Below are positions 3,472 through 27,867 of a stretch of 33,209 bases of DNA, in pieces (position 1 is the first letter of the stretch; each line of letters opens with the position of its first letter). The translations under genes were made by a program, and so were the position numbers. The notes under the pieces are model-generated. The model ran no database searches and had not been told where the DNA came from. It worked only from the letters and a program-made list of their open reading frames with translations. The DNA comes from a virus. The DNA lies in IMG/VR virus record IMGVR_UViG_3300025086_000116, positions 1 through 33,209 of that record; one strand, written 5' to 3'.

Positions 3472-4521
3472 ATGGCATTTCCAGCAGCATCAGGGTACAC
3501 CAACCTTGCAAATGGGACATGGTCCCCAGTACTTTATAGCAAAAAGGTCCAGTTGGCCTTGCGCAAGAGTTCAGTAATCGACGCAATTACTAACACTGAT
3601 TACACCAACGAGATCGCAAATTTTGGTGATAGTGTGAAAATTGTCAAAGAACCTGACATAACTATAACAGCTTACGAGAGGGGTACGACACTCGCAACCC
3701 AAGATCTCGTTGATAGCGATTTCACTATGGTTGTAGATCAAGCAAACTACTTCCAATTCGCAGTGGACGATATCGAAGAAGCGCACAGCCATGTGTCCTT
3801 CCAAGACCTTGCTTCAGACCGCGCAGGATATAAATTGCGTGACTCATACGATGCAGAAGTTCTTGGTTACATGTCTGGATGGAAGACACCTTCCAACTGG
3901 GTGCGTAATACTACAACTAACGGTACTAAAGCCAACTCAGGTGCAGGATCTGACGAATTACTTGCAGCAAACAAGTTGGATATCACTGATTTTGGTGGTT
4001 CTGATCTTGGTGGTACTGGCGAAGTAACATCTATTCCAATCGCCGCTGGCGGTGGAGCAGGTGGTATCACTTCACCTTTGGCTATAATGAACCGCATTGC
4101 CCGACAAATGGATCAGGCAAATGTAGACACTGATGGTAGATGGCTGGTTGTAGACCCTGTCTTCGCAGAAGTGTTAATGGACGAGTCAAGCAAGCTCATA
4201 AATTCTGACTTCGGTGGGGGTGATGAGATGCGTAATGGTCGTTTGCCAGGTACGATTAGAGGTTTCTCTATCTACAAGTCAAATAATCTTCCATACGAAG
4301 GTACAGGCGCTGGCGTGTCAGCGGCTGCAGGTTCAGAAACTAACTTTTCTGTTCTAGTAGCTGGTCACGCTTCTGCAGCAGCAACTGCAGAGCAGATTGC
4401 TAAAACAGAGACTTTCCGTTCACCAACTACATTTGCAGACATTGTTCGCGGAATGCAGTTGTATGGAAGGAAAATACTTCGTCCTGAAGCTCTTTTCACA
4501 GCAAACTATAACTTAGCATAA
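3472..4521 (+). CDS. Major capsid protein
   Basis: The protein has 349 residues, preceded by a strong AGGAG Shine-Dalgarno and its own promoter P1. The N-terminal region (ALRKSSVIDAITNTDYTNEI, GDSVKIVKEPDITI) and the alternating domain pattern fit the HK97-fold major capsid proteins of podoviruses, which assemble the icosahedral shell as hexamers and pentamers. A Gly/Ala-rich loop at about residues 188-205 is probably surface exposed. The C-terminal part (LVAGHASAAATAEQIAKTE, then GRKILRPEALFTANYNLA) is typical of coat proteins that carry a hydrophobic strand near the end. Placement after the portal and scaffold genes and before the tail-tube genes supports the call. It should be the most abundant virion protein, matching its strong promoter and Shine-Dalgarno. 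The precise subfamily is not determined. Confidence 0.88.
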   Translation: MAFPAASGYTNLANGTWSPVLYSKKVQLALRKSSVIDAITNTDYTNEIANFGDSVKIVKEPDITITAYERGTTLATQDLVDSDFTMVVDQANYFQFAVDDIEEAHSHVSFQDLASDRAGYKLRDSYDAEVLGYMSGWKTPSNWVRNTTTNGTKANSGAGSDELLAANKLDITDFGGSDLGGTGEVTSIPIAAGGGAGGITSPLAIMNRIARQMDQANVDTDGRWLVVDPVFAEVLMDESSKLINSDFGGGDEMRNGRLPGTIRGFSIYKSNNLPYEGTGAGVSAAAGSETNFSVLVAGHASAAATAEQIAKTETFRSPTTFADIVRGMQLYGRKILRPEALFTANYNLA

Positions 4522-16176: not shown

Positions 16177-17724
16177 ATGACATTATACAACCCACTTATG
16201 CCGTGGATGCAACCTCGAAACAGTGGGTTGATTGTATTCAAAGGTGAGACAGGAGCTTCGGTTGAAGAGGTTCAAAGCATAACAGATGATGCAACCTCTA
16301 CTGTTACTGGTGCTATCGATGATGCAAGTGCAGCCGCAGGTTCAATACTAGGATCAGCGTCTGAAACAGGCACTACTACTGGTAATACAGGAGACTTTAC
16401 TACGGCTGTTGTGACTAATACTGATGCAGATGGTAATGTTACTACCACTGGCGGTGATAAGGTAACCTACGGTGGTAACGAAGTTGGTGTTACTGATACT
16501 ATTAAAGGTGATACTGAAACAATTATTGGTCAGGGTAGTACAACCCAAGACTTAATCAATAAACGCTTCGATTCCTTTGGGGGTGGTGGCTCAACAACAA
16601 ATATTGTTAACGAAATTGATACAAGTGACTTAGCAAAAGTAGATCAGGTCAATCAAGGCTTTTCTACTTCGGTTGCTAATCAGTCCTCTATATTAGGTGG
16701 TCAAAGTAATTTAGCCCAAGGACAATCAGGTTTAGCAAAAACTCAAACTGATATTTTAGGTAATCAGGTAGGTATGCAAACAGGCATAGACACAGCCAAT
16801 ACTGCTCTTACAGGATTAGGATCTGCAGTAACTGACGTACAGACAGGGGTCGATACAGCTAATACAAATCTAGGTAATCTAGGTAAAGACGTAAGTGAGG
16901 GCTTTGCAGGTCAACAGAAACAAGTAGCCAACATGCAGCAAGCGGTTTTAAGTGGTCAGGTTTCAATGACAGACGTATTGAATGCAATGCGAGATGAGCA
17001 AACTACGCAGTATGGAGATCTTTCAGCTAATCAGGCTACCATAACGGATACTATAGGTGGTATTCAAACAGGGTTGGGTACATTAAGATCAGATCAACAA
17101 AAGGCAAATACTCTAGCGGATCAATCTAGGGCAGAACTAGCTAAGACAGTCACTGGTGGATTTGATGCTGTAACCGAAAACCAAGCGTCACAACAAAATC
17201 AGGCAGCTAAGAATGCAGACGCATCACTGGCTAACCAAGCTGCTATCCAACGACAGGCATTACCACAGTCATTAGCTACATTTGGGGCTACTGCAAAACA
17301 ATTAGCCAGTGGTCAGGCTGCTAGTGGTGACGCTACTCCTCAACAAACAGATTTCTTAAATAGGTTAGCTACTATTAAGCAGATACTATCTACACAAGGT
17401 ACTAACTTGGATGCTAGTATTCGCGCAGAGTACGCAACTATAGCTAATGCTTTCGATAACGATGGTACGCTAATTCCTGCATCAATTAACGAGAATGGTA
17501 ATCAAGTTAGGCGCGGCATGGATAATGCTGACATGCTTATCACTAATACTTACAACGCCCAAGGTGGTTTAGCTAATCAAAAGAAAAGTGATTTAAACCA
17601 ACTAATGGCTGCATTAGATACGATGGGCTATCGTCAACAAGGTAGTCAATCAGGCGGCTTATCAGCCAATGGGCAAGGCATAATGTCTGCTCAACAAAAT
17701 CAACCATTTATTCAACAAAATTAA
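16177..17724 (+). CDS. Coiled-coil virion protein, candidate internal (ejection) protein
   Basis: The protein has 515 residues, very rich in Gln, Asn, Ala, Thr and Gly, and largely helical after residue 130. The N-terminus contains a short hydrophobic start (TLYNPLMPWMQPRNSG) and a Gly/Thr-rich region to about residue 125. The centre has repeated heptads, including two copies of TG(I/V)DTANTxLxxLG at about residues 208-245. The C-terminus ends in SGGLSANGQGIMSAQQ and further Gln/Asn residues. There is no signal peptide, enzyme motif or Cys. The position immediately after the gp13-like gene and within the lysis/internal-protein block parallels T7 gp14-like internal proteins, but similarity is not evident, so the role is inferred from position and composition. 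Confidence 0.45.
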   Translation: MTLYNPLMPWMQPRNSGLIVFKGETGASVEEVQSITDDATSTVTGAIDDASAAAGSILGSASETGTTTGNTGDFTTAVVTNTDADGNVTTTGGDKVTYGGNEVGVTDTIKGDTETIIGQGSTTQDLINKRFDSFGGGGSTTNIVNEIDTSDLAKVDQVNQGFSTSVANQSSILGGQSNLAQGQSGLAKTQTDILGNQVGMQTGIDTANTALTGLGSAVTDVQTGVDTANTNLGNLGKDVSEGFAGQQKQVANMQQAVLSGQVSMTDVLNAMRDEQTTQYGDLSANQATITDTIGGIQTGLGTLRSDQQKANTLADQSRAELAKTVTGGFDAVTENQASQQNQAAKNADASLANQAAIQRQALPQSLATFGATAKQLASGQAASGDATPQQTDFLNRLATIKQILSTQGTNLDASIRAEYATIANAFDNDGTLIPASINENGNQVRRGMDNADMLITNTYNAQGGLANQKKSDLNQLMAALDTMGYRQQGSQSGGLSANGQGIMSAQQNQPFIQQN

Positions 17725-17743: not shown

Positions 17744-18475
17744 ATGCACCCTGTAAAGATTTCAGAAGACGGTATTAATTTAGTGAAGAAGTTTGAAGGA
17801 CTTCATAGAGTACAACCAGACGGTATGGTGAGCGCATATCGTTGTCCAGCCGGAAAATATACATGTGGTTGGGGCGCGACTCGCGGAGTACGCAGCGGTA
17901 CTAAGTGGACAAAAGAATACTGCGAGATGCGTCTTATCGAAGACTTAGCAGAGCATAGTAAAGCTGTTAAGAAGTACGTCCAAGTACCTCTATCTCAAGG
18001 ACAATTCGATGCGCTTACCTCTTTTGTATTCAACTTAGGTGAAGGTAACTTCCGTAGTAGTTCACTTTTGCGCCTTCTGAATCAAGGAAAATACGATGAT
18101 GTGCCTGAGCAAATCATGCGTTGGAATAAAGCTAGGGTCGATGGAAAGCTTACTCCACTAAAAGGTCTTACAAGACGTAGGGCTGCAGAAGCCGCAATCT
18201 TTTCTAGAGATGCTGCTATGCCTTCGGATGATGGTGGTCCAGAAATGCCCCAGAAAGTTACTGCAGAAGCTCCTAAAAGTTTAATGAAAAGTAAGACAAT
18301 GGCTGGCGCAGGAATTGCTGGTGCAGCGACAGGACTTAATGAAGTAGCAGGTCAAATGCAAAGCTTGTTACCCTACGCTGATAGTCTAAAAACCATCTTC
18401 TTAGTATGTGCAATTGGCGGCATAGCCCTAGCAGCCTACGCCAGATGGAAAGACAATAAAGAGGGCATCCACTAG
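17744..18475 (+). CDS. Endolysin (GH24 lysozyme) with C-terminal membrane segment
   Basis: The protein has 243 residues. The GH24 muramidase core lies at about residues 5-155: Glu18 in KFEGL is the catalytic acid and TCGWGAT (40-46) is the conserved loop. The family triad E-x8-D/C-x5-T appears here as Glu18, Cys34 and Thr40, with E to C separated by 15 residues because of a roughly 7-residue insertion (QPDGM area). Such enzymes cleave the MurNAc-GlcNAc bond. After a Pro/Lys-rich linker, residues about 180-200 are small and hydrophobic, and residues about 212-232 (TIFLVCAIGGIALAAYARW) form a clear transmembrane helix followed by positive residues. A C-terminal anchor is unusual and may supply a holin-like function, as no separate holin is visible. 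Shine-Dalgarno AAGGAG. The spanins follow at once. Confidence 0.88.
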   Translation: MHPVKISEDGINLVKKFEGLHRVQPDGMVSAYRCPAGKYTCGWGATRGVRSGTKWTKEYCEMRLIEDLAEHSKAVKKYVQVPLSQGQFDALTSFVFNLGEGNFRSSSLLRLLNQGKYDDVPEQIMRWNKARVDGKLTPLKGLTRRRAAEAAIFSRDAAMPSDDGGPEMPQKVTAEAPKSLMKSKTMAGAGIAGAATGLNEVAGQMQSLLPYADSLKTIFLVCAIGGIALAAYARWKDNKEGIH

Positions 18476-18714
18476 TGTTTATTTTTAGTAAGATCAAAAC
18501 TTACATCATTGGTGCATTAGCGGTGGCTATTCCAATCATTTATGTGATGGGCAAAGTCGTTGGAGCTAATAAAGAAAAGAATAAAATACTTAAAGACGAT
18601 CTCCAAGCCTCTAAGAAAAAAACAGACTTTTATAAGAAAATGGCAGAGCATGAAAAAGATAGTATTACTGATCGCCCTAGTCTCATTAAGCGGCTGCGCG
18701 GAAACGGTCTATAG
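18475..18714 (+). CDS. i-spanin (Rz-like), GTG start
   Basis: The protein has 79 residues. It begins with GTG on the last base of the endolysin stop. An N-terminal membrane helix (residues about 8-28, TYIIGALAVAIPIIYVMGKV) is followed by a highly charged coiled-coil stretch (NKEKNKILKDDLQASKKKTD). This is the Rz topology: anchored in the inner membrane with a periplasmic coiled coil. It is shorter than lambda Rz (153 residues). With the o-spanin it would fuse inner and outer membranes at the end of lysis of a Gram-negative host. The o-spanin gene begins inside it in another frame, which is the classical Rz/Rz1 arrangement and strengthens the call. Confidence 0.8.
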   Translation: MFIFSKIKTYIIGALAVAIPIIYVMGKVVGANKEKNKILKDDLQASKKKTDFYKKMAEHEKDSITDRPSLIKRLRGNGL

Positions 18715-18895
18715 GACCGACTTAGAAATTTATTGCCCACCAGTGGAACAGTACTCAGAAGAGTTCACTGAAATTCTGGCTGCAGAGCTAGATGTTTTGC
18801 ATGAAGACTATGAGGCAATTCCTGAAGTGGTGACAGATTATATACTACTGCGTGATCGTATTCGCCAGTGCAATGCTGAGAAGGAAGAACTATAA
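18650..18895 (+). CDS. o-spanin lipoprotein (Rz1-like), start nested in i-spanin
   Basis: I choose the ATG at 18650, not an upstream one at 18560, because it gives an 81-residue protein with a perfect lipoprotein signal: MKK, a hydrophobic stretch, then lipobox LSGC with Cys16. The mature part (about 66 residues) begins CAETVYRT and is acidic with a helical C-terminus (LRDRIRQCNAEKEEL). Cleavage by signal peptidase II and lipidation would place it in the outer membrane. It overlaps the i-spanin by 65 bases in a different frame and extends well beyond its stop. The stop overlaps the following ATG by one base (TAATG). Confidence 0.8.
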   Translation: MKKIVLLIALVSLSGCAETVYRTDLEIYCPPVEQYSEEFTEILAAELDVLHEDYEAIPEVVTDYILLRDRIRQCNAEKEEL

Positions 18896-21258
18896 TGGGA
18901 TTATGGTCAGACACATTTGGTGGGGGAAATTCTCTACAACAATCTATAGCTAATGTTACCACACCTGGTGATAACACAACTTATGTTGGTGGCGTTCTTA
19001 CGAATAACGACACAAATCAGGCAGTAGACGATAGCAATGCAGTAGTAGGTAATGACGGTAGTATTTTTACAAATAATTCTTCAAGTGGAAATGACGGTAA
19101 CGGTGGATCTAATAATAACGTAGGCGGTGCACCATCTGGTGGCTTTCTATCATTCTTAAACCCAGTATCTATTATAGGTAAACTATCAGGTTGGGCTAAT
19201 GGCCTAGACCCAGAGAATGATGCTAATACATCTATAAATGGAAGAGAATACTACACCAGTTCAGATGGTATGGTATATACATACAACGCACTTGGTCTTC
19301 CCTATGAAGTTGTGCAGGGAGAAGATGGTAACTTTGTAGACAAACTATCAGTCGTGGACGAAGAAACAGGTCTAACTGGATATCAGCAACTAGCCCAAGA
19401 TTTAAAAGATAGTGGCGATGATGAAGGTGCAGCCCAAGTCCTACAGGAAGAACAGCAAAATGCTGATAATGTTGAAATAGAAAAGACTGTGGCAGAGCAA
19501 GTACTGGAGTGGGCTAAGTCTACAGGAATGAATCTTCAAAATACAGATATCAAAGCAATCATAGATGATCCCAATAAGTTTCTAGCAGATAGAAATATGG
19601 TTCTTGAGGATGTAGTACCTACGCTAAATGCCAACGCTGCAGGAACTAATATATTAGGGAGTGACCCTAAGTACTCTCTTGGTGAAGCAGATGCTTTAAA
19701 TATAAAAACTGCTACTGCAGGAGATGCATCTACAATTGGCTCTGTTACAGCGGCTACACCAGTATCCTACAAAGCTAGTACAAATCTAGATAAGATGGAT
19801 TCTTCGTTTGATGTTAATGCAGCAACAGGAACAATAGATGATGACAATCTAGTAGATGCTTCAACTATAGTCACTGATATGCAAGGTGCAGCTACTGGTC
19901 GTAATGCGGATGGTACAATCAATTATAGTGGTATAGCATCTAATGATTATGCTACTCAGAAGTTTAGCTCAATCATTGATACCTCTACGGTATCCGGCAA
20001 GAATTTAGCAAAGGCTCTTGGTGAGGGTAACTATCTAGACGAAAAAGCTACAATTGCTGGTCAGATGAAAATCATCTCTGAGCAATTTGTTAATGCTCAA
20101 GGTCAAGCTGTAATACCAAAATGGGCGCAGAAGATGGCTAGATCAGTAGCCCAAACAATGGCTTTCGATGGTATTAGTGGATCAGCCCAGACCTCTGCAA
20201 TGGCTACGGCTATTATGGAAGCAACGCTAGGTATAGCAGAAAGAGAAGCTACATTCTTTCAGACACTTACAACAAAGAATTTAGACAACCGTCAGCAAGC
20301 TATAATCAATAAAGCAAACATATTATCTCGCTTTGAAGTAGCTAATCTAGGCGCACGACAGGCGGCTGCAGTACAGAATGCTAAGTCTTTCTTAGAGATG
20401 GACTTAAAGAACCTAACTAATGAGCAACAAGCAGAAGTAATAAACAAACAGGCTAAGACTCAAGCTTTGTTTGAAGATAGTAAGATCATTAATGCCCAGC
20501 GCCTATTCACTGCAGAACAAACAAATGATTTCAATAAGTTCTACGATGAATTAAATGTAGCCGTTCAGAAGCATAACTCCTCTGAGATTAATGCTATGAA
20601 GAAGTTTAACGCTGGTGAGATCAATGACACCAGAGAGTTTAACGCAGAGCTAGAAGACTCCAGAGCAAGGTTCTATGCAAATATGCAATACAACATAGAT
20701 TCTGCTAATGCTAAATGGAGACAAGAAGTTACTGTAAAACAATTTCAAACTACTTGGGATGCTATTAGTACAGACGTAAAGAATTCTTTAGATCTATCTA
20801 CTGAAGGCATGAACCAACTATGGGATCGAACAGACAGTTTATTAGATTTTGTATTTAGAAAAAGTGAAGGTGACGCTAATCGTGAAGTTACCTTAATAGG
20901 ATCACAGCTACAGGCTCAAGCCCAACAATCCGGCGGCTCAAGTTGGTGGGAAACTATTTTGGGTATTGGTGGTACTCTATTAGGAACAGACGCAGGTAGT
21001 TCAGCGGCAATTAAATGGCTTAAAGGTCTGAGTGATATTAGACTTAAAAAGAATGTCCGTAAGATAAATACTGTAAATGGTATTAATATATACTCATGGG
21101 AATGGAATGATGAAGGTATTCGTCTAGGCGCAGACCAAGATCATACTACTGGTTTTATAGCACAAGACCTTATGAAAACTCACCCAGAAGCAATCTCTAC
21201 ACATGATAGCGGCTACCTGATGGTCAACTATAAGGCGGTACAAAATGGACTTCAATAA
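18895..21258 (+). CDS. Large virion protein with C-terminal S74 self-cleaving chaperone domain
   Basis: The protein has 787 residues. Residues about 1-100 are low-complexity (Asn/Gly/Ser/Asp). The middle (roughly 380-690) is strongly helical with heptads such as TKNLDNRQQAIINKANILSR and MQYNIDSANAKWRQEVTV. The C-terminal 75 residues, from Ser713, form a peptidase S74 / intramolecular chaperone domain: SDIRLKKNV, then WEWND and TGFIAQDLM. The Ser713-Lys718 pair has the same spacing as the Ser-Lys dyad that self-cleaves endosialidase tails. In known proteins the domain trimerises and folds a fibre, then cuts itself off just before the Ser. Finding it on a mainly helical protein placed between lysis genes and ejection-type genes is unusual. 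A helical fibre or an internal/needle protein are the options. Confidence 0.72.
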   Translation: MGLWSDTFGGGNSLQQSIANVTTPGDNTTYVGGVLTNNDTNQAVDDSNAVVGNDGSIFTNNSSSGNDGNGGSNNNVGGAPSGGFLSFLNPVSIIGKLSGWANGLDPENDANTSINGREYYTSSDGMVYTYNALGLPYEVVQGEDGNFVDKLSVVDEETGLTGYQQLAQDLKDSGDDEGAAQVLQEEQQNADNVEIEKTVAEQVLEWAKSTGMNLQNTDIKAIIDDPNKFLADRNMVLEDVVPTLNANAAGTNILGSDPKYSLGEADALNIKTATAGDASTIGSVTAATPVSYKASTNLDKMDSSFDVNAATGTIDDDNLVDASTIVTDMQGAATGRNADGTINYSGIASNDYATQKFSSIIDTSTVSGKNLAKALGEGNYLDEKATIAGQMKIISEQFVNAQGQAVIPKWAQKMARSVAQTMAFDGISGSAQTSAMATAIMEATLGIAEREATFFQTLTTKNLDNRQQAIINKANILSRFEVANLGARQAAAVQNAKSFLEMDLKNLTNEQQAEVINKQAKTQALFEDSKIINAQRLFTAEQTNDFNKFYDELNVAVQKHNSSEINAMKKFNAGEINDTREFNAELEDSRARFYANMQYNIDSANAKWRQEVTVKQFQTTWDAISTDVKNSLDLSTEGMNQLWDRTDSLLDFVFRKSEGDANREVTLIGSQLQAQAQQSGGSSWWETILGIGGTLLGTDAGSSAAIKWLKGLSDIRLKKNVRKINTVNGINIYSWEWNDEGIRLGADQDHTTGFIAQDLMKTHPEAISTHDSGYLMVNYKAVQNGLQ

Positions 21259-21427
21259 AGCAATTAAACAATCGATCTCTAATTTCTTAGAAGGTCGAGT
21301 TCCCAAAGCCTTAATGGAACTTAAAGAAGGCGAACTTATTTACACCCCTGAATATTTTGATGCTCTTGAAGAAGACTTAAAGAATGAGCCTGAAGTCAAG
21401 AAAGAGGATGATATAGATGAAGTTTGA
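21245..21427 (+). CDS. Small acidic protein, unknown function
   Basis: The protein has 60 residues. The gene starts 14 bases before the S74 gene ends and its stop overlaps the next ATG by 11 bases, so all three are coupled. I recognise no family. The sequence is helical, with basic residues at the start (KAIKQSISNFLEGRVPKALME) and an acidic end (EEDLKNEPEVKKEDDIDEV). The opening hydrophobic helix may bind a partner. Its position and tight coupling make it likely real; a small accessory or chaperone of the adjacent virion proteins is possible. Confidence 0.6.
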   Translation: MDFNKAIKQSISNFLEGRVPKALMELKEGELIYTPEYFDALEEDLKNEPEVKKEDDIDEV

Positions 21428-21998
21428 AGGACCAATTCCAGGCGAGAACTATTTAACAGATACTAAGAATTACCCTTGGCATCGTCCACCTGATTTAGTG
21501 GACTACGACGAAGCTGTTTCTTACATGTTAGATAAGATAGATGAGCCGGAGCAGATAGAATTAGTATTTGCTATGCTGCAGATAGAGGCTCATGTAGCAA
21601 CTGTAGTAAGCACCCTACTCCTTCAAGGCATATCGAAGGGTAAATTCTCTATAGATCTGGCTATGTTAATGGCTGGTCCTCTAGCACGATATATTGAGAT
21701 AAAAGCTAATAATTCTGGAGTTAAACATAAGATGGGGGTTGAGAAAGATGATCGCATGGTTCTCACCCCTACTCTACTAAAAGCCGCTCTTGGGATAGTA
21801 GAACAGCCTGAAGAAGAGTCAGAAGAAATTAAGTCTTTAAGAGAAGAAGCTGGTCCTAACGAAATCACTCAAGAACAGATGATGGGTCTAATGTCTATGC
21901 CTCAGAATACTGGGGCTGCACCTGCAGCGGAGCAAGCTGAGATGCTTGGGCAAGTAGAAGAAGATCCAGAAGAAGAGCTAGAAGAGGAGCCTGTATAA
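21417..21998 (+). CDS. Conserved-looking virion-module protein, unknown function
   Basis: The protein has 193 residues. The N-terminal part (GPIPGENYLTDTKNYPWHRP) is rich in Tyr, Trp and Pro and looks like an extended binding segment. Residues about 30-110 form a helical domain with a hydrophobic stretch (LVFAMLQIEAHVATVVSTLL). The C-terminal third is disordered and acidic, rich in Glu, Met and Ala, ending EEDPEEELEEEPV. I do not recognise a named family, though the N-terminal wording feels familiar from marine phage virion modules. It is translationally coupled on both sides (11-base overlap before; the next gene starts 2 bases after). A role in assembling the following ejection-type proteins is inference. 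Confidence 0.5.
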   Translation: MKFEGPIPGENYLTDTKNYPWHRPPDLVDYDEAVSYMLDKIDEPEQIELVFAMLQIEAHVATVVSTLLLQGISKGKFSIDLAMLMAGPLARYIEIKANNSGVKHKMGVEKDDRMVLTPTLLKAALGIVEQPEEESEEIKSLREEAGPNEITQEQMMGLMSMPQNTGAAPAAEQAEMLGQVEEDPEEELEEEPV

Positions 21999-21999
21999 G

Positions 22000-24174
22000 A
22001 TGGGTTGGCAAACAGAAGCAAAAAAAATACGCGCTGGTCTAGCTAGAGGTGATTACCAGAAGAAACGTAATTATGCAGATGCATTTATGAAACCTTTTGT
22101 TAGAGGTATTGAACGGCAAGAAGCTGCGCGGATTGTAGAAGAAAGAGAAGAGAGAGCTAGGGTAGCAAGGGAAGAAAAGGAAGATGCAGATAGGCAGAGG
22201 GCGCTAGATAAGGCAGATGCTGCAAGACAGGACATGGTAAGCTTAATAATAGCACAAAATAATATAACGCCTACTCCTGAAATTAATAAACAATTAATGA
22301 CTATAGCTAAATCAGGAAACTTCACAGACGCTGGTAAATTTCAAACATACTTTGATGAGTACATTAAATATGATCAGGGTAAATCGGATGCTCCTCTTAA
22401 TCAGATACAGGGGAGCTTGCCCCCAGAAATGAGGGCTAGAGAGGAAGCTATTGAGAAGAATAAACAACGGATTCTTAATAATCCTGAAAATAAAGCAGTG
22501 ATTGAGTCAGGTGAATATACTGAGCAAGAGATAAATGATCTTGCAGGTGACTTGGCGGCACAGAATACAGGACAACCCGACCCAGCTTCCCTACAGATGC
22601 AAGAGATTGGTATTGAAGGTACAGACCCTTCTATAACTTTAGGTAAACGTCCTAAGAAACCTAGTGCTATGGAAGAAAGAGAAATTGTATCCGAACTTAA
22701 TTCTGGAAACATTAGCGACGAAAGAAGGGCAGCATTAGAAAATGAACTGTCTTCTATAAATTATCAAACAGATGAAGAGATATTTGCTAAACTACCAGCA
22801 GTTAAGGATATGAAGTCTTTTAGGAGTGCATTAGCTGAAGCAAACGCCTTACCTGATAGTTCTGGTAAGACAAAGGCCATAGCCAGAATTAACCAGATAG
22901 GTACTGAATTAGCAAATAGCTTTGACCAAGACTTCTTACAAAATCTTGATAGCGTAGATAAGATTACTGCAGCCGAAGGTGAACTGGAAGCTATGCCAGA
23001 GATTTACGACGGTCAAAAGGCTAAATTAGAAAAAATACTCGAAACTCAGAAAGAAAAGTTTGCTACACTGGCTAAATCTAAAAGTGATGCTAAACTTGCA
23101 GCGGCTACAGGCTCTGAAATACAACTTAAACGCTACAATCTAGACCCTAAAACTGGTCTAATGAACTTCAAAGTTCTTGGGGGTACAGTCACTAGAAAAC
23201 CAGATGGTGCAGGTGGCTATATATTTACCACTACTGAGGGTAAGCCCTTAGACGAAGAAACTATAAAGAATAGCGTTTTTTATACTACTGATGAAGCTGA
23301 ACTTATTATAAAAGTTTATAACGATGAAGTGTCGGAAGCTAATACCACAATCACAGAGTCCACAGTTGCCGTCGCTACCATTATAGACCTACAGGATTAT
23401 GTAGCTACTGAAGGCAAAGAAGCTCTTAACCCCTTTACAAATGCTTTAGGTCAGTTAGCCGATAAAATTATAGCGGCTGGGGATGCAGCTAAAACTATTT
23501 TTACAGTAGATAGCGAGGGGAATGTTGGAAACTATAAACAAGTTGAAAGTGAGTTCTTAGAATCTCTAGGTAACCTGTCTGGTAAGGACAAAGTAGTAGC
23601 ACAAAAGACATTAGCTACCGCATATGCTATTGCTAAGATGAGAGGCTCTGTAGGCCAAGCCCTTTCAGATAGAGAGCTTAAATCAATTCTTGCTACTCTT
23701 GGACAGGGAGTAACAAATCCTGAGAAACTGGTTGGAATTTTAGATGAGCTATTAATATCAGAAGTCACTAATGCAGAAATAAGACGAAAAGGTTTTTCTG
23801 AAAGCATCCTGAAGGTGGGTGGCGAAACAGAAATTATTAATTCTACAGGTATAGGTAAACCTATTTACGGCACTATTTTAGAGGGTTTAGAATTTAGGGA
23901 AGATAAAGCTAAATTTAAATCTATGTTCTCACAACAACTCGCTGGAGAAGAACCTAGTCGTAGACCAGAAATTATTGAACAACAATCTGAAAATATAAAT
24001 AAATACATCACTAACTATAGCGGATTTTTTACTAAGGAAGAGTATAATTATATTCCCTTAGAGGACAAATTTAGTTCTGCTATGAATTCTATTAAAAAGA
24101 AAGTAACTGACCCTGTTATTTTAGAGGCTATAGAAAAAGGTCTTAGAGAAACTTACGGAAAACCCAATAATTAA
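22000..24174 (+). CDS. Helical virion protein, candidate ejection protein (T7 gp15-like position)
   Basis: The protein has 724 residues and is very rich in charged residues and Ala. The N-terminal 80 residues form a long charged helix (ARIVEEREERARVAREEKED). Further helical repeats fill residues 95-350. A Gly-containing beta-like section follows (about 385-430, KVLGGTVTRKPDGAGGYIFT), then a helical domain (about 440-600) and a C-terminal helical part. No signal peptide, Cys cluster or enzyme motif is visible. The length and helical make-up match T7 gp15-class internal core proteins (about 750 residues), which are ejected with the genome. The position before the 1225-residue gene mirrors gp15-gp16. 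Primary-sequence homology to T7 is not visible to me. Confidence 0.5.
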   Translation: MGWQTEAKKIRAGLARGDYQKKRNYADAFMKPFVRGIERQEAARIVEEREERARVAREEKEDADRQRALDKADAARQDMVSLIIAQNNITPTPEINKQLMTIAKSGNFTDAGKFQTYFDEYIKYDQGKSDAPLNQIQGSLPPEMRAREEAIEKNKQRILNNPENKAVIESGEYTEQEINDLAGDLAAQNTGQPDPASLQMQEIGIEGTDPSITLGKRPKKPSAMEEREIVSELNSGNISDERRAALENELSSINYQTDEEIFAKLPAVKDMKSFRSALAEANALPDSSGKTKAIARINQIGTELANSFDQDFLQNLDSVDKITAAEGELEAMPEIYDGQKAKLEKILETQKEKFATLAKSKSDAKLAAATGSEIQLKRYNLDPKTGLMNFKVLGGTVTRKPDGAGGYIFTTTEGKPLDEETIKNSVFYTTDEAELIIKVYNDEVSEANTTITESTVAVATIIDLQDYVATEGKEALNPFTNALGQLADKIIAAGDAAKTIFTVDSEGNVGNYKQVESEFLESLGNLSGKDKVVAQKTLATAYAIAKMRGSVGQALSDRELKSILATLGQGVTNPEKLVGILDELLISEVTNAEIRRKGFSESILKVGGETEIINSTGIGKPIYGTILEGLEFREDKAKFKSMFSQQLAGEEPSRRPEIIEQQSENINKYITNYSGFFTKEEYNYIPLEDKFSSAMNSIKKKVTDPVILEAIEKGLRETYGKPNN

Positions 24175-24189
24175 TTGGAGCCATTTTGA

Positions 24190-27100
24190 ATGGAAAATGA
24201 AGAACTAGATATACAAGCTATTGCTGACTCTTTTTTACCTGATTTAGAAGAAGAAAAAGACGAAGATAATGAGGATACAGATATCCAATCTGTAGCAGAC
24301 TCCTTCTTACCTGAGAAAAAAGAAGAGCCTGTAATCCCCTACCCTGATCCTGTAGTTAATGGTACTACCGAAGAACCTGCAACAGAGGAAGGTTTTACTA
24401 CTTCATCCTTCGATGATATGACTTTTCAGGATGCAATGGCTCAGTATAAACAAGCTAGGGATAGTATAGGTCAGGAAGATTCTCCATTCTCTACTAGCTT
24501 TGGTAGCTTAGTATATACAGACTCTAATGGAACAAATACTTTTGTACCAATGCCTCAACCACGCAATTGGGATATTGTAAAAAGTCTATGGCCTTTTAAT
24601 GATTTTAACGCAGAAGATGTTAAGGCAAGAGTTCCCCTAACTACAGTAGCTGGATTTGGAATTAGAGAATCTGTAAATGATGCAACGGAAATGGGTGCGG
24701 CTGGTATAGATTACTTTGGATCAGCTACAGGTATGTATGATACAGATCTACTTTCATCTGCACAAGAAGGCTCAATCAAACTAAATACCGGAGACAGTAT
24801 CCTTGATGCAATAATTGCTGATGGTGCGCCAGCGTTGTTAGCTGGTGGTGGTACTGGAGCTTTAGTATTTAAAAGTCTGAAATACGCACCAACAGTACTT
24901 AGAGGTTTGGCTGCAGCGGTGTCTGGTGAAGTAGCTGCTACTGCTACTACAGGTACTAATGAAGGAACTTTATGGTTAGATTTCGGACCCGAAGACATGG
25001 GTCTGTCTGAAGACGAAAAAGGTAAATTAATTGCTCACCGAATGAATACTTTTATGGAAGGTATGATAATCGGAGGAGCGTTTACTGGTACGGCATTAAC
25101 TCTTAAAGCAGGGGGCATGGCTGCATACGATTTCTTGGGTAAAGGAATTGCTGATATGTTCAGCGGTAGACCAGCCGTAGAGCGTGAAGTTTATGAAAAA
25201 GTTTCTTTAGCTTTAAGTGGTCTTACCAGTAAGGCTACTCCCCAAGAAATAGCTGATATACAAGCTGAACTAGCAGAGATTGTTTCTCAAAACAAAGAAG
25301 TTCTTGTTAAAAGCTTGGCTGATTTAGAAAAAGAAAGACCTCAGACATTTGATACAGTTACTGCCTTACTTAGGGGAAATTCAGAAAATCTAAACCCTTC
25401 TAATCTTCGCGGCAATAGGGCTGGAGTAGTTAACGAATCTGGTACTACACCCATTCAAATGACCGATGGTACTTCAACGACATTAAATGACCAAGTCAAT
25501 GCGCCAGTAAATGCAATACAAGAAGACCTAGCCGATCAAAGACAAGCTCTTGGAGGAGGTGAAGGTACAGTTGCTACCCAAGTCAATGCACAAGTTTTAC
25601 CAGCGGATCAGGCGGTTATGCAAGACGCGGCTGATGTTATGGTCAACCAAAGCAGACGAGTTGTGGATGATGCTCAAGGTGGCCTTGAAGCAGCGCAAGC
25701 AAAGTTTGATGCAGATGTAGATGCCGTACTAGCTAATCGTGCAGATGATATTGAAATGATGGCTGCACTAGAAGAACTCCAGAAAAAGTACCCTGACCAA
25801 TTAGCAGATATAAAACTTGAAGGCGTAGGAACTATAAAGTCAGATGTACGAAATGCGTATGAAGCGGTTAAGTACGAAAAGGATCGTCTTTATAGAGAAG
25901 TAGAAGGCGGCGCATTAGACGTTGACGGTTTAGTAGAAACTCTAGAGTCATTAGATCCCTCTTATTTTGATCCCGCCCGACTTGGATTACCACCAAAATC
26001 AATGTTTGGTAATTTTATGAACAAGTTTAAATCTACTCAAGCACAAGTGGATAATTTACTAAAAGAGGCAGACAGCATATCTGCAAAACTGGCTAACCCT
26101 AAGAGTAAAAATAAAGAAGCCTTACAGAATAGGTTAGATGAAATTGATTCAATTGTAGGTGGTGATCCAGACGCAGCCGTTAAAAAGCTTATGGGTGACT
26201 TTATTGAAGGAGAAGGTCTAACCTTTGGAGATTTATATACTGATATAAGACCTGCAATATCTCGCGCTGCAAGTGACTTGTTCTCTGCAAATACTCCAGA
26301 GTCAAAAGCCGCTGGTCGGGTAATGCGAGAGTTTATTAGCTATATAGATAATGATGCATTAGATTTTGCGGCTCAAAGTGATGCTGGATTAAAAGAAGCG
26401 GCTGATGCAGCTAAATCATTTTACCAAAATAACTATGCAGATTTCTTTGGTGGAGACAGTGTTCTAGCGAGATATGCTAATCTTTATGACTCAACAATAG
26501 GAAGAACTCCTGGTACAAACCTAACCGCAAAGGCTACTGGTAAAGAGTTTGGTGTAAGAGAGTACAATGAAAAATTAAATACCCTAGTTAATGGCGAAGT
26601 TCTTGGTTCTGGTAATGAAGATATATTCCAGAATGTAGCTGACTTATTGGGTAAAAACCTGAACGGAGAACAGCTAGGAAATCCAGATCTTTTGTTTGAT
26701 TACATGATGTTTGATGTTATTCAGAATTTTCATTCAAAAGTAAGAACTGGTGGTATGAAAGCGGTTGATGTTGAGGCAATGCTTAATCAACTTAATAAAC
26801 ATGCAACCGTTGTATCAAAAGTATTTCCGGAAAAGACTGCCTCTATTAGAAAGTTTATTGATGAGCTTGAAGCGGTAAAAGGATCTTCTACAGATTTGGA
26901 AACCAAACTAGCTACGGCTAGTGAGAATGCTACAGTAGCAAAGTCAAAATTATACGACTCTATATTAAGTAAATTTTGGGATAATAAAGGTACTCCTAAA
27001 GCTTCGGAGATTGCGGCTGGTAGTGAGATAAGGCCAACGTCCAATCCTTATTCCAACTTTGTTTCGATCTTTACAGATACCCAAGCATTGAACCGTCTAG

Positions 27101-27867
27101 ATGATCTCATGGCTGAGATAGATGCTTTACCTAAAGGTAACTACGCTAAGTCCGAAGGCGAGATAGTTATGGATGGTTTAAAGCTATCTTTTAATAAGTT
27201 CATTGATGATAAAATATTTACCGCTGCAAGAAACTTAACAGGTGGAAAAGAACTTAGTGTAGCACAAGCTGATAAAATTCTAGAAGATGTCCGAACACCT
27301 CAAGTTATGGCTCTCGCAAGAAAAATATATAAAGATTCTCCTGAATGGGTAGAAGCTTTAGAAAATACTTTAGACTTCGCTAGAGATGCGGCTATTAATA
27401 AACGAGCTACTCCTAATCCTTCCCAATCAGCAACCAACTTTAACGCTAATGCTCAGACAGCGACTAATAGATTAATATATACTTTTATTGGTCCGTTGAG
27501 CCGTACTGGTACAAAGTTAAAAGCTTTAGGATCAGGAATAATTAACAAGTATGACACTAACCAGCTTGCCGCTGAAGTTACGGCACAGTTATATGCTGAT
27601 CCAGATTACTTTCTGGAGTTAGCACGACGCTTTAATAGTAGCCCTAAAGATCCTTTGCTTGAACAATTAATGGTCAGATATCTATTTGGGGGTATTATAA
27701 AAACTGACTTAGATGAGGATTCCGAAAACAGGTCAGATGCCATTAAAGATGTGGGATCTGGTATAGCTAGTTCAGTTACACCAGATTTAATAGAAAGTGG
27801 TTTTACTAGTGTAAGTGATGCAGTTCCTGTTATTACAGAGGCACTTGGAATCCCTACCACAGAATAA
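24190..27867 (+). CDS. Very large virion protein, candidate ejection protein (T7 gp16-like position)
   Basis: The protein has 1225 residues and is the largest gene here. The acidic N-terminus carries two copies of the motif DIQxxADSFLP (residues about 7-17 and 32-42). Two hydrophobic Gly/Ala-rich segments follow at about 200-256 and 285-320 and could insert into a membrane. The rest is mostly helical with long charged stretches, and the end is short and acidic (ITEALGIPTTE). Size, last position in the rightward operon and possible membrane segments parallel T7 gp16, which builds the trans-envelope channel for DNA entry. No transglycosylase motif was seen, so peptidoglycan cleavage may instead be carried by the SleB protein. 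A GGAG Shine-Dalgarno is present. Assigned by position, not homology. Confidence 0.5.
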   Translation: MENEELDIQAIADSFLPDLEEEKDEDNEDTDIQSVADSFLPEKKEEPVIPYPDPVVNGTTEEPATEEGFTTSSFDDMTFQDAMAQYKQARDSIGQEDSPFSTSFGSLVYTDSNGTNTFVPMPQPRNWDIVKSLWPFNDFNAEDVKARVPLTTVAGFGIRESVNDATEMGAAGIDYFGSATGMYDTDLLSSAQEGSIKLNTGDSILDAIIADGAPALLAGGGTGALVFKSLKYAPTVLRGLAAAVSGEVAATATTGTNEGTLWLDFGPEDMGLSEDEKGKLIAHRMNTFMEGMIIGGAFTGTALTLKAGGMAAYDFLGKGIADMFSGRPAVEREVYEKVSLALSGLTSKATPQEIADIQAELAEIVSQNKEVLVKSLADLEKERPQTFDTVTALLRGNSENLNPSNLRGNRAGVVNESGTTPIQMTDGTSTTLNDQVNAPVNAIQEDLADQRQALGGGEGTVATQVNAQVLPADQAVMQDAADVMVNQSRRVVDDAQGGLEAAQAKFDADVDAVLANRADDIEMMAALEELQKKYPDQLADIKLEGVGTIKSDVRNAYEAVKYEKDRLYREVEGGALDVDGLVETLESLDPSYFDPARLGLPPKSMFGNFMNKFKSTQAQVDNLLKEADSISAKLANPKSKNKEALQNRLDEIDSIVGGDPDAAVKKLMGDFIEGEGLTFGDLYTDIRPAISRAASDLFSANTPESKAAGRVMREFISYIDNDALDFAAQSDAGLKEAADAAKSFYQNNYADFFGGDSVLARYANLYDSTIGRTPGTNLTAKATGKEFGVREYNEKLNTLVNGEVLGSGNEDIFQNVADLLGKNLNGEQLGNPDLLFDYMMFDVIQNFHSKVRTGGMKAVDVEAMLNQLNKHATVVSKVFPEKTASIRKFIDELEAVKGSSTDLETKLATASENATVAKSKLYDSILSKFWDNKGTPKASEIAAGSEIRPTSNPYSNFVSIFTDTQALNRLDDLMAEIDALPKGNYAKSEGEIVMDGLKLSFNKFIDDKIFTAARNLTGGKELSVAQADKILEDVRTPQVMALARKIYKDSPEWVEALENTLDFARDAAINKRATPNPSQSATNFNANAQTATNRLIYTFIGPLSRTGTKLKALGSGIINKYDTNQLAAEVTAQLYADPDYFLELARRFNSSPKDPLLEQLMVRYLFGGIIKTDLDEDSENRSDAIKDVGSGIASSVTPDLIESGFTSVSDAVPVITEALGIPTTE

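Follow-up and report, generated by a model that had tools for sequence, protein, structure and literature searches.

The window, i.e., the entire 33,209-base stretch of viral DNA that was analyzed, is a genome fragment whose forward strand carries a gene for a 787-aa protein (P0001; 18895..21258) predicted, from its reading frame, Pfam match and relatives, to be an ejection-type structural protein capped by a shortened S74 domain. Five parts can be told apart in this protein: a low-complexity, Gly/Asn-rich head (residues 1-85; 19149 being the last base of 18895..19149) with pLDDT values mostly below 50; a β/α patch (residues 110-175; 19222..19419) modeled at a pLDDT of about 65-78; a predicted long-helix region of low confidence (residues 409-654; 20119..20856), which houses the most conserved core and in which the Trp643 codon (20821..20823) served as the anchor for the distance measurements below; a hydrophobic Gly-rich C-terminal segment (residues 683-712; 20941..21030) with the best 19-residue hydropathy window from residue 688; and the mini-S74 domain itself (residues 713-787; 21031..21255), which has neither the α1 collar nor the α4 coiled coil. 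The latter opens with Ser713 (21031..21033), the predicted nucleophile and cleavage point by analogy to the mechanism in the excerpted text of PMC8326128, followed by Lys718 (21046..21048), predicted to complete the dyad. The window holds no other S74 domain; by computation the mini-S74 accounts for 8.5 kDa and the remainder of the protein for 76.2 kDa.

Upstream of P0001 lie, on the same strand, a lysozyme/endolysin gene (17744..18475), an Rz-like frame resembling inner-membrane spanins (18475..18714) and a frame with an outer-membrane spanin-like lipoprotein (LVSLSGC; 18560..18895), the last of which begins within the preceding frame, with an overlap of about 155 bases. Downstream follow a 60-aa ORF (21245..21427), the second gene of a conserved block, and three further members of that block, encoding 193 aa (21417..21998), 724 aa (gp15-sized; 22000..24174) and 1225 aa (gp16-sized; 24190..27867), all likewise on the forward strand. 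A preliminary description had already placed the gene between spanins and ejection-type genes, away from the fiber genes, and had noted its low-complexity head and the C-terminal S74 motif SDIRLK with Ser713 and Lys718; gene order, composition, the Pfam match and the intact dyad bear out each of these points. Two other regions of the window deserve mention. The gene at 15722-16174 matches in size and position the acyltransferase-like gene of Roseobacter phage CRP-738 (“putative acyltransferase”), whose same-placed counterpart in CRP-235 is a “putative toxin-activating lysine-acyltransferase”, and is directly followed by a large gene with no assigned function (16177-17724). Separately from the lysozyme gene, positions 976-2346 encode a 456-aa protein whose N-terminal part resembles endolysins; its gene lies between a portal-like fragment and the 260-aa gene that precedes the major head protein.

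The assignment of the C-terminal domain is supported by several lines of evidence. Residues 713-766 score 40.4 bits with Pfam PF13884 (Peptidase_S74; cut-off 22, E 3.7e-10), and the domain reaches 45.1 bits in the whole-record scan. A profile of 26 related mini domains (A1) retrieves 6f45, 3gud, 8jov and 7dc3 from the PDB (E 1e-5 to 4e-5), and, modeled on its own, the P0001 domain reaches a pLDDT of 83, exceeding 90 in the core. In the full-length model, VIA-align superimposes residues 726-787 on residues 606-679 of 7dc3, the MyRF ICA (62 residues, rmsd 2.1, Z 5.0), and also recovers 3gw6 (Z 4.0) and 3gud (Z 3.8), these Z values being modest. The S74 structures were recovered solely by VIA-align and the sequence profile: a Foldseek search with the domain-alone model yielded nothing at E <= 0.001 (best 0.95) with S74 entries unlisted, and phmmer with full-length P0001 found no S74 match in the PDB.

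This domain belongs to a distinct size class. Sorted by the number of residues after the Ser, 142 representative S74 domains separate into one group with <=87 and another with >=90, with an empty bin between them; there are 88 short forms, 53 long forms and one outlier with a long extension, the classes being set by this tail length and their statistics biased by the queries used to fetch the loci (P0001, L036 and A1 versus L136). When the 88 short and 53 long forms are aligned jointly, the short class lacks the α4 region and shows a 4-5-residue gap opposite the α1 helix (NAL.KV) of the long class. In MyRF, according to the excerpted text of PMC8326128, trimerization is driven mainly by the triple coiled coil of the α4 helix (residues 670-705), with the α1 and α3 helices reinforcing it; coiled-coil mutations block cleavage, and α4 is needed for both trimerization and cleavage. 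Given that the last aligned MyRF residue is 679, P0001 would stop about nine residues into α4. Thus, its 75-residue domain shares the Ser-Lys spacing of canonical versions (endosialidase NF, GA-1 neck appendage and MyRF; 3gw6, 3gud, 7dc3), but differs from them in having no α1 collar, just a stub of α4, and, ahead of it, a hydrophobic segment apparently in place of a triple β-helix, the upstream region being modeled as helical at low confidence. The mini-S74 is hence a recurrent variant that keeps the Ser-Lys dyad and the β core without both trimer-making helices. While the S74 family is known, we found neither this trimer-helix-free class on ejection-type proteins nor its slot in print, and a search of open-licence papers returned none linking S74 with ejection proteins. 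The preliminary description was right in seeing a real S74 domain on a non-fiber protein; it did not notice that this variant is shortened and recurs elsewhere, nor that it is absent from many close relatives.

The body of P0001 is harder to characterize. AlphaFold2, run with 23 sequences, places long helices at residues 409-654 and 699-712 with a mean pLDDT of 46, and, as most values are below 55, the helical body proposed earlier can be called likely only, and that proposal had left the β/α patch unmentioned. At this pLDDT, and with VIA-align returning mainly chance helix matches, a fold for the whole protein was considered and set aside, and no body fold is claimed. A P22 gp26-like tail needle would have a long trimeric coiled coil; residues ~429-660, which are poorly modeled, show no heptad (3.5) periodicity (power 0.001) in what is a weak test. 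These data bear on the idea, also raised earlier, of a trimeric helical tail needle. S74 domains usually sit on trimeric fibers and the body is probably helical; nevertheless, the absence of α4 and α1, the lack of a heptad signal and the position of the gene at the head of the ejection-type block, away from the fiber genes, argue against a conventional trimeric S74 needle or fiber matured by autocleavage. Moreover, Roseobacter phage CRP-235 and phage CRP-212 carry both classes on different proteins, the long one on the tail fiber and the mini form on the P0001 relative. A tail needle is therefore unlikely, and we regard the conventional needle-or-fiber reading as a whole as very improbable.

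The closest named phage relative of P0001 comes from Roseobacter phage CRP-738 (50% identity over 89%), with others in the Roseobacter phages CRP-235 and CRP-3 and more distant ones in phiM6 and HMO-2011; the source is a marine HMO-2011-like podovirus. Genome regions were examined for 22 of the 30 phage matches (all except H6, H7, H13, H15, H19 and H25-H27). CRP-738, CRP-235, CRP-3, CRP-212 and phiM6 share the order lysis genes, P0001 relative, small gene, ~180-200-aa gene and two large genes, after which comes a leftward nucleotide block, and HMO-2011 and its kin preserve the stretch from the P0001 relative onward apart from small insertions. We infer that the genes of this block function in ejection. 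The excerpted text of PMC8954989 gives T7 gp14, gp15 and gp16 as 196, 747 and 1318 residues and describes gp14 as insoluble in water without its partner. The likeness of gp15 and gp16 to the 724-aa and 1225-aa genes is one of size alone; T7 gp14 and P22 gp7 likewise are encoded by the first gene of an ejection block and have hydrophobic segments, but they are about 200 aa long as against 787, no sequence similarity to them was found, and any membrane role of P0001 is putative. Profile searches with the P0001 core and the 193-aa, 724-aa and 1225-aa proteins matched no ejection protein in Pfam, PHROG or the PDB, and for the core this includes T7 gp14-16 and P22 gp7, gp20 and gp16. Since P0001 adjoins the spanins, and the literature yields no virion proteomics for the HMO-2011-type group, one might suppose that it is not internal at all and instead serves host lysis or another late function; yet HMO-2011, CRP-1 and CRP-2 also place it ahead of the large genes, and their records show no annotated lysis gene immediately upstream of it, which makes such a role most unlikely.

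Comparable associations occur in other phages. In Pseudomonas phage AH02 a mini-S74 gene directly precedes a “P22-like injection translocase”, in Rhizobium phage RHph_Y1_10 it directly precedes two “putative injection proteins”, and in Vibrio phage PVA1 a mini-S74 frame lies directly before genes for a protein “released from the phage upon host infection” and a “DNA transfer protein”; all three mini-S74 proteins are smaller than P0001. The S74-ended frame of PVA1, of 277 codons (L472:4383-5213), is unannotated in its record. Among 41 genes downstream of mini-S74 genes (the one for L038 being chosen by annotated position), 10 have matches to phrog_2534 and four to phrog_917, two families named “released from the phage upon host infection”, with endolysin matches in individual cases; downstream of long-S74 genes (41 of 50), both families are absent among the best 25 of 55 families. 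A PHROG scan that covered 62 of the 85 short proteins gave matches to phrog_598 (“DNA ejection”) in seven, to PHROG 4287 (“DNA ejection protein”; residues 674-783 of P0001) in 51 and to PHROG 6121 (“virion structural protein”; residues 459-785) in 57. The last two are matched by 15 of 23 P0001 family members, seemingly tied to the S74 region, and by 3/41 and 7/41 neighbors of long-S74 genes, respectively. As these matches come with the S74 domain, we rejected the PHROG names as proof of an ejection role.

The sequence immediately before the domain further distinguishes the two classes. The most hydrophobic 19-residue window of P0001 starts at residue 688, just before Ser713, with a near-equal second at residue 76. 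The 32 residues before the Ser fall in the top tenth of their own protein’s windows in 69/86 short versus 7/48 long forms, and the hydropathy maxima there are 1.13 versus 0.68 (Mann-Whitney p 7e-10, in a query-biased sample in which row L072 was counted as long through a false motif). Long S74 domains are preceded by strand-like sequence, e.g., RIDASNDIVAYST.

This junction coincides with the natural end of relatives that lack the domain. From the equivalent of Trp643, the median distance to the Ser is 65 residues (56-92) in 31 S74-bearing relatives and that to the stop is 64 (57-76) in 19 rows without a fused S74, of which 18 are S74-free and one, L087, is a split form; the two distributions do not differ (Mann-Whitney p 0.71; the frame-shifted fragment L024 is omitted from these counts). 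The domain thus looks like a removable cap, and a cut before the Ser would yield approximately the C-terminus with which S74-less relatives are made. In a tree of 56 cores (omitting L087, whose contig is shared with L318), the presence of S74 requires at least four changes, by gain or loss. Even the seven-member clade of P0001 (support 100/99), with members up to 77% identical to it, comprises four with and three without the domain. PF13884 was found in none of six whole records of S74-less relatives, including HMO-2011 and phiM6, of which L007 and L008 are clear fragments. The gp25 proteins of phiM6 and HMO-2011 both share the homologous helical core and gene order of P0001; the former has no C-terminal domain, whereas the latter has a different, Cys-first domain in place of S74.

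The dyad itself is strongly retained. We scored 154 distinct short domains by a profile without demanding the motif, albeit one derived from A1, whose members all carry the dyad: a Ser was found in 149 and a Cys in one, with four unaligned, the Lys is present in 150/150 aligned domains, and next to the Ser 146 domains carry Asp and four carry Glu. Ser, Asp and Lys are present in all 94 long domains. The 142-domain length/hydropathy set and the joint alignment demanded an SD...K motif, and dyad conservation there is circular. The Cys-bearing version, in L351 (ORF from 1928), keeps the Lys.

In three contigs from three metagenomes (L318, which is the contig of L087, with S74 at 3986-4234; L319; L320), the core ends and the S74 domain forms its own frame, the core stop overlapping the S74 start as ATGA, against 59 other S74 frames in the same search that are fused. 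Sequencing error is an unlikely source of the split, given that both frames and their ATGA overlap recur in contigs from three metagenomes, in L320 with silent differences. Between L318 and L320, the free S74 has a dN/dS of 0.06 and the final 400 codons of the core one of 0.16, an estimate from one pair with 21 silent and seven replacement changes; in this pair the free S74 is under purifying selection. The maintenance of the split gene under selection suggests that the domain is useful unattached, as expected of a chaperone or cap, and makes self-removal less plausible as its sole job; and, as the split form retains Ser and Lys with nothing to cut off, the dyad may serve another purpose. The free-standing gene, together with the loss of both trimer-making helices, favors an uncut chaperone or cap, namely a mini-S74 that aids the folding or solubility of the hydrophobic C-terminus without cleavage and stays attached or acts in trans. 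Against it stand the retention of the Ser and Lys in practically all aligned short domains, the fact that the single Ser-to-Cys exchange keeps a nucleophile while the adjacent Asp tolerates Glu in four, and the coincidence of the Ser position with the point where uncapped relatives naturally end. We consider the uncut form rather doubtful.

Weighing this evidence, we lean toward P0001 being a virion protein of the ejection type in which the mini-S74 caps the hydrophobic C-terminus while the particle is assembled and then cuts itself off at Ser713; its presence in the virion, the capping or chaperone action, the membrane role and the cleavage are all things that we infer. Under this proposal, P0001 would be the product of the first gene in a block for ejection-type, internal virion proteins in an HMO-2011-like podovirus, with a hydrophobic Gly-rich segment, hard to keep soluble, as its true C-terminus. 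The mini-S74 would shield this segment during folding and assembly and most likely cut before Ser713 through the Ser-Lys dyad, leaving a 76-kDa product with the C-terminus that S74-less relatives are made with; the exposed segment could then act on membranes in DNA delivery. Taken by itself, cleavage at Ser713 appears more probable than not, but it is not assured, because MyRF requires the α4 coiled coil for it (excerpted text of PMC8326128) and the mini-S74 has none; this and the dyad-bearing split form are the main objections. Weighing against the proposal as a whole, support for the ejection role comes from gene order and from comparison with other phages, and many relatives are capless. 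The earlier suggestion of an internal protein matured by self-cleavage thus fits the comparative data, with the cleavage being a prediction.

S74 has been described as a chaperone of trimeric β fibers, and “tail fiber domain-containing protein” is a common name for proteins bearing it; for the mini-S74 class this name would be misleading. If S74 domains do cap ejection proteins, even without the trimer helices, this would offer a new insight into how phages, podoviruses with their ejectosomes included, silence hydrophobic, membrane-active delivery proteins until the virion is built. From the slot comparison, the mature C-terminus of the cultured roseophage proteins can also be predicted precisely.

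HMO-2011 and four relatives feature at the same slot, 65-67 residues from the anchor, an unrelated domain of 64-75 residues starting with CWVAREVYG (HMO-2011 gp25, L035:20760-20978; also L239, L240, L268 and L279, with further copies in L393-L471). The Cys comes first in all 76 viral copies found, and the residues preceding the domain are in the top hydropathy tenth of their protein in 57/59. Two unrelated domains at one slot, along with the C-terminal position, could also be read as covalent targeting tags that steer P0001 into the procapsid and are later removed or kept; however, the 18 rows without a C-terminal domain and the split-S74 forms would then be tagless, and we deem such tagging improbable. 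Returning to the cap hypothesis, it might, as a speculation from position only, be that the Cys of this domain is a nucleophile. Extending this, we tentatively raise the idea, to which we would give only modest credence, that podovirus ejection-type proteins share a “cap slot” after a Gly/Ala-rich hydrophobic helix, for which the Ser-first mini-S74 and the invariant-Cys domain compete, each placing a nucleophile at the junction. Both would be self-processing or trans-acting caps that silence a membrane-active C-terminus until assembly, with the mini-S74 working without a coiled-coil trimer. The Cys-first domain has no match in Pfam, PHROG or the PDB, and the open-licence papers searched held nothing on the CFI-box. 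The NCBIfam model NF041770 (CFI_box_CTERM) reaches 12-15.4 bits on it (E 0.012-0.14), below its cut-off of 40 bits. Outside viruses, the CWVAREVYG domain is frequent in MAG proteins from Planctomycetes genome assemblies, where it often follows Gly-rich linkers.
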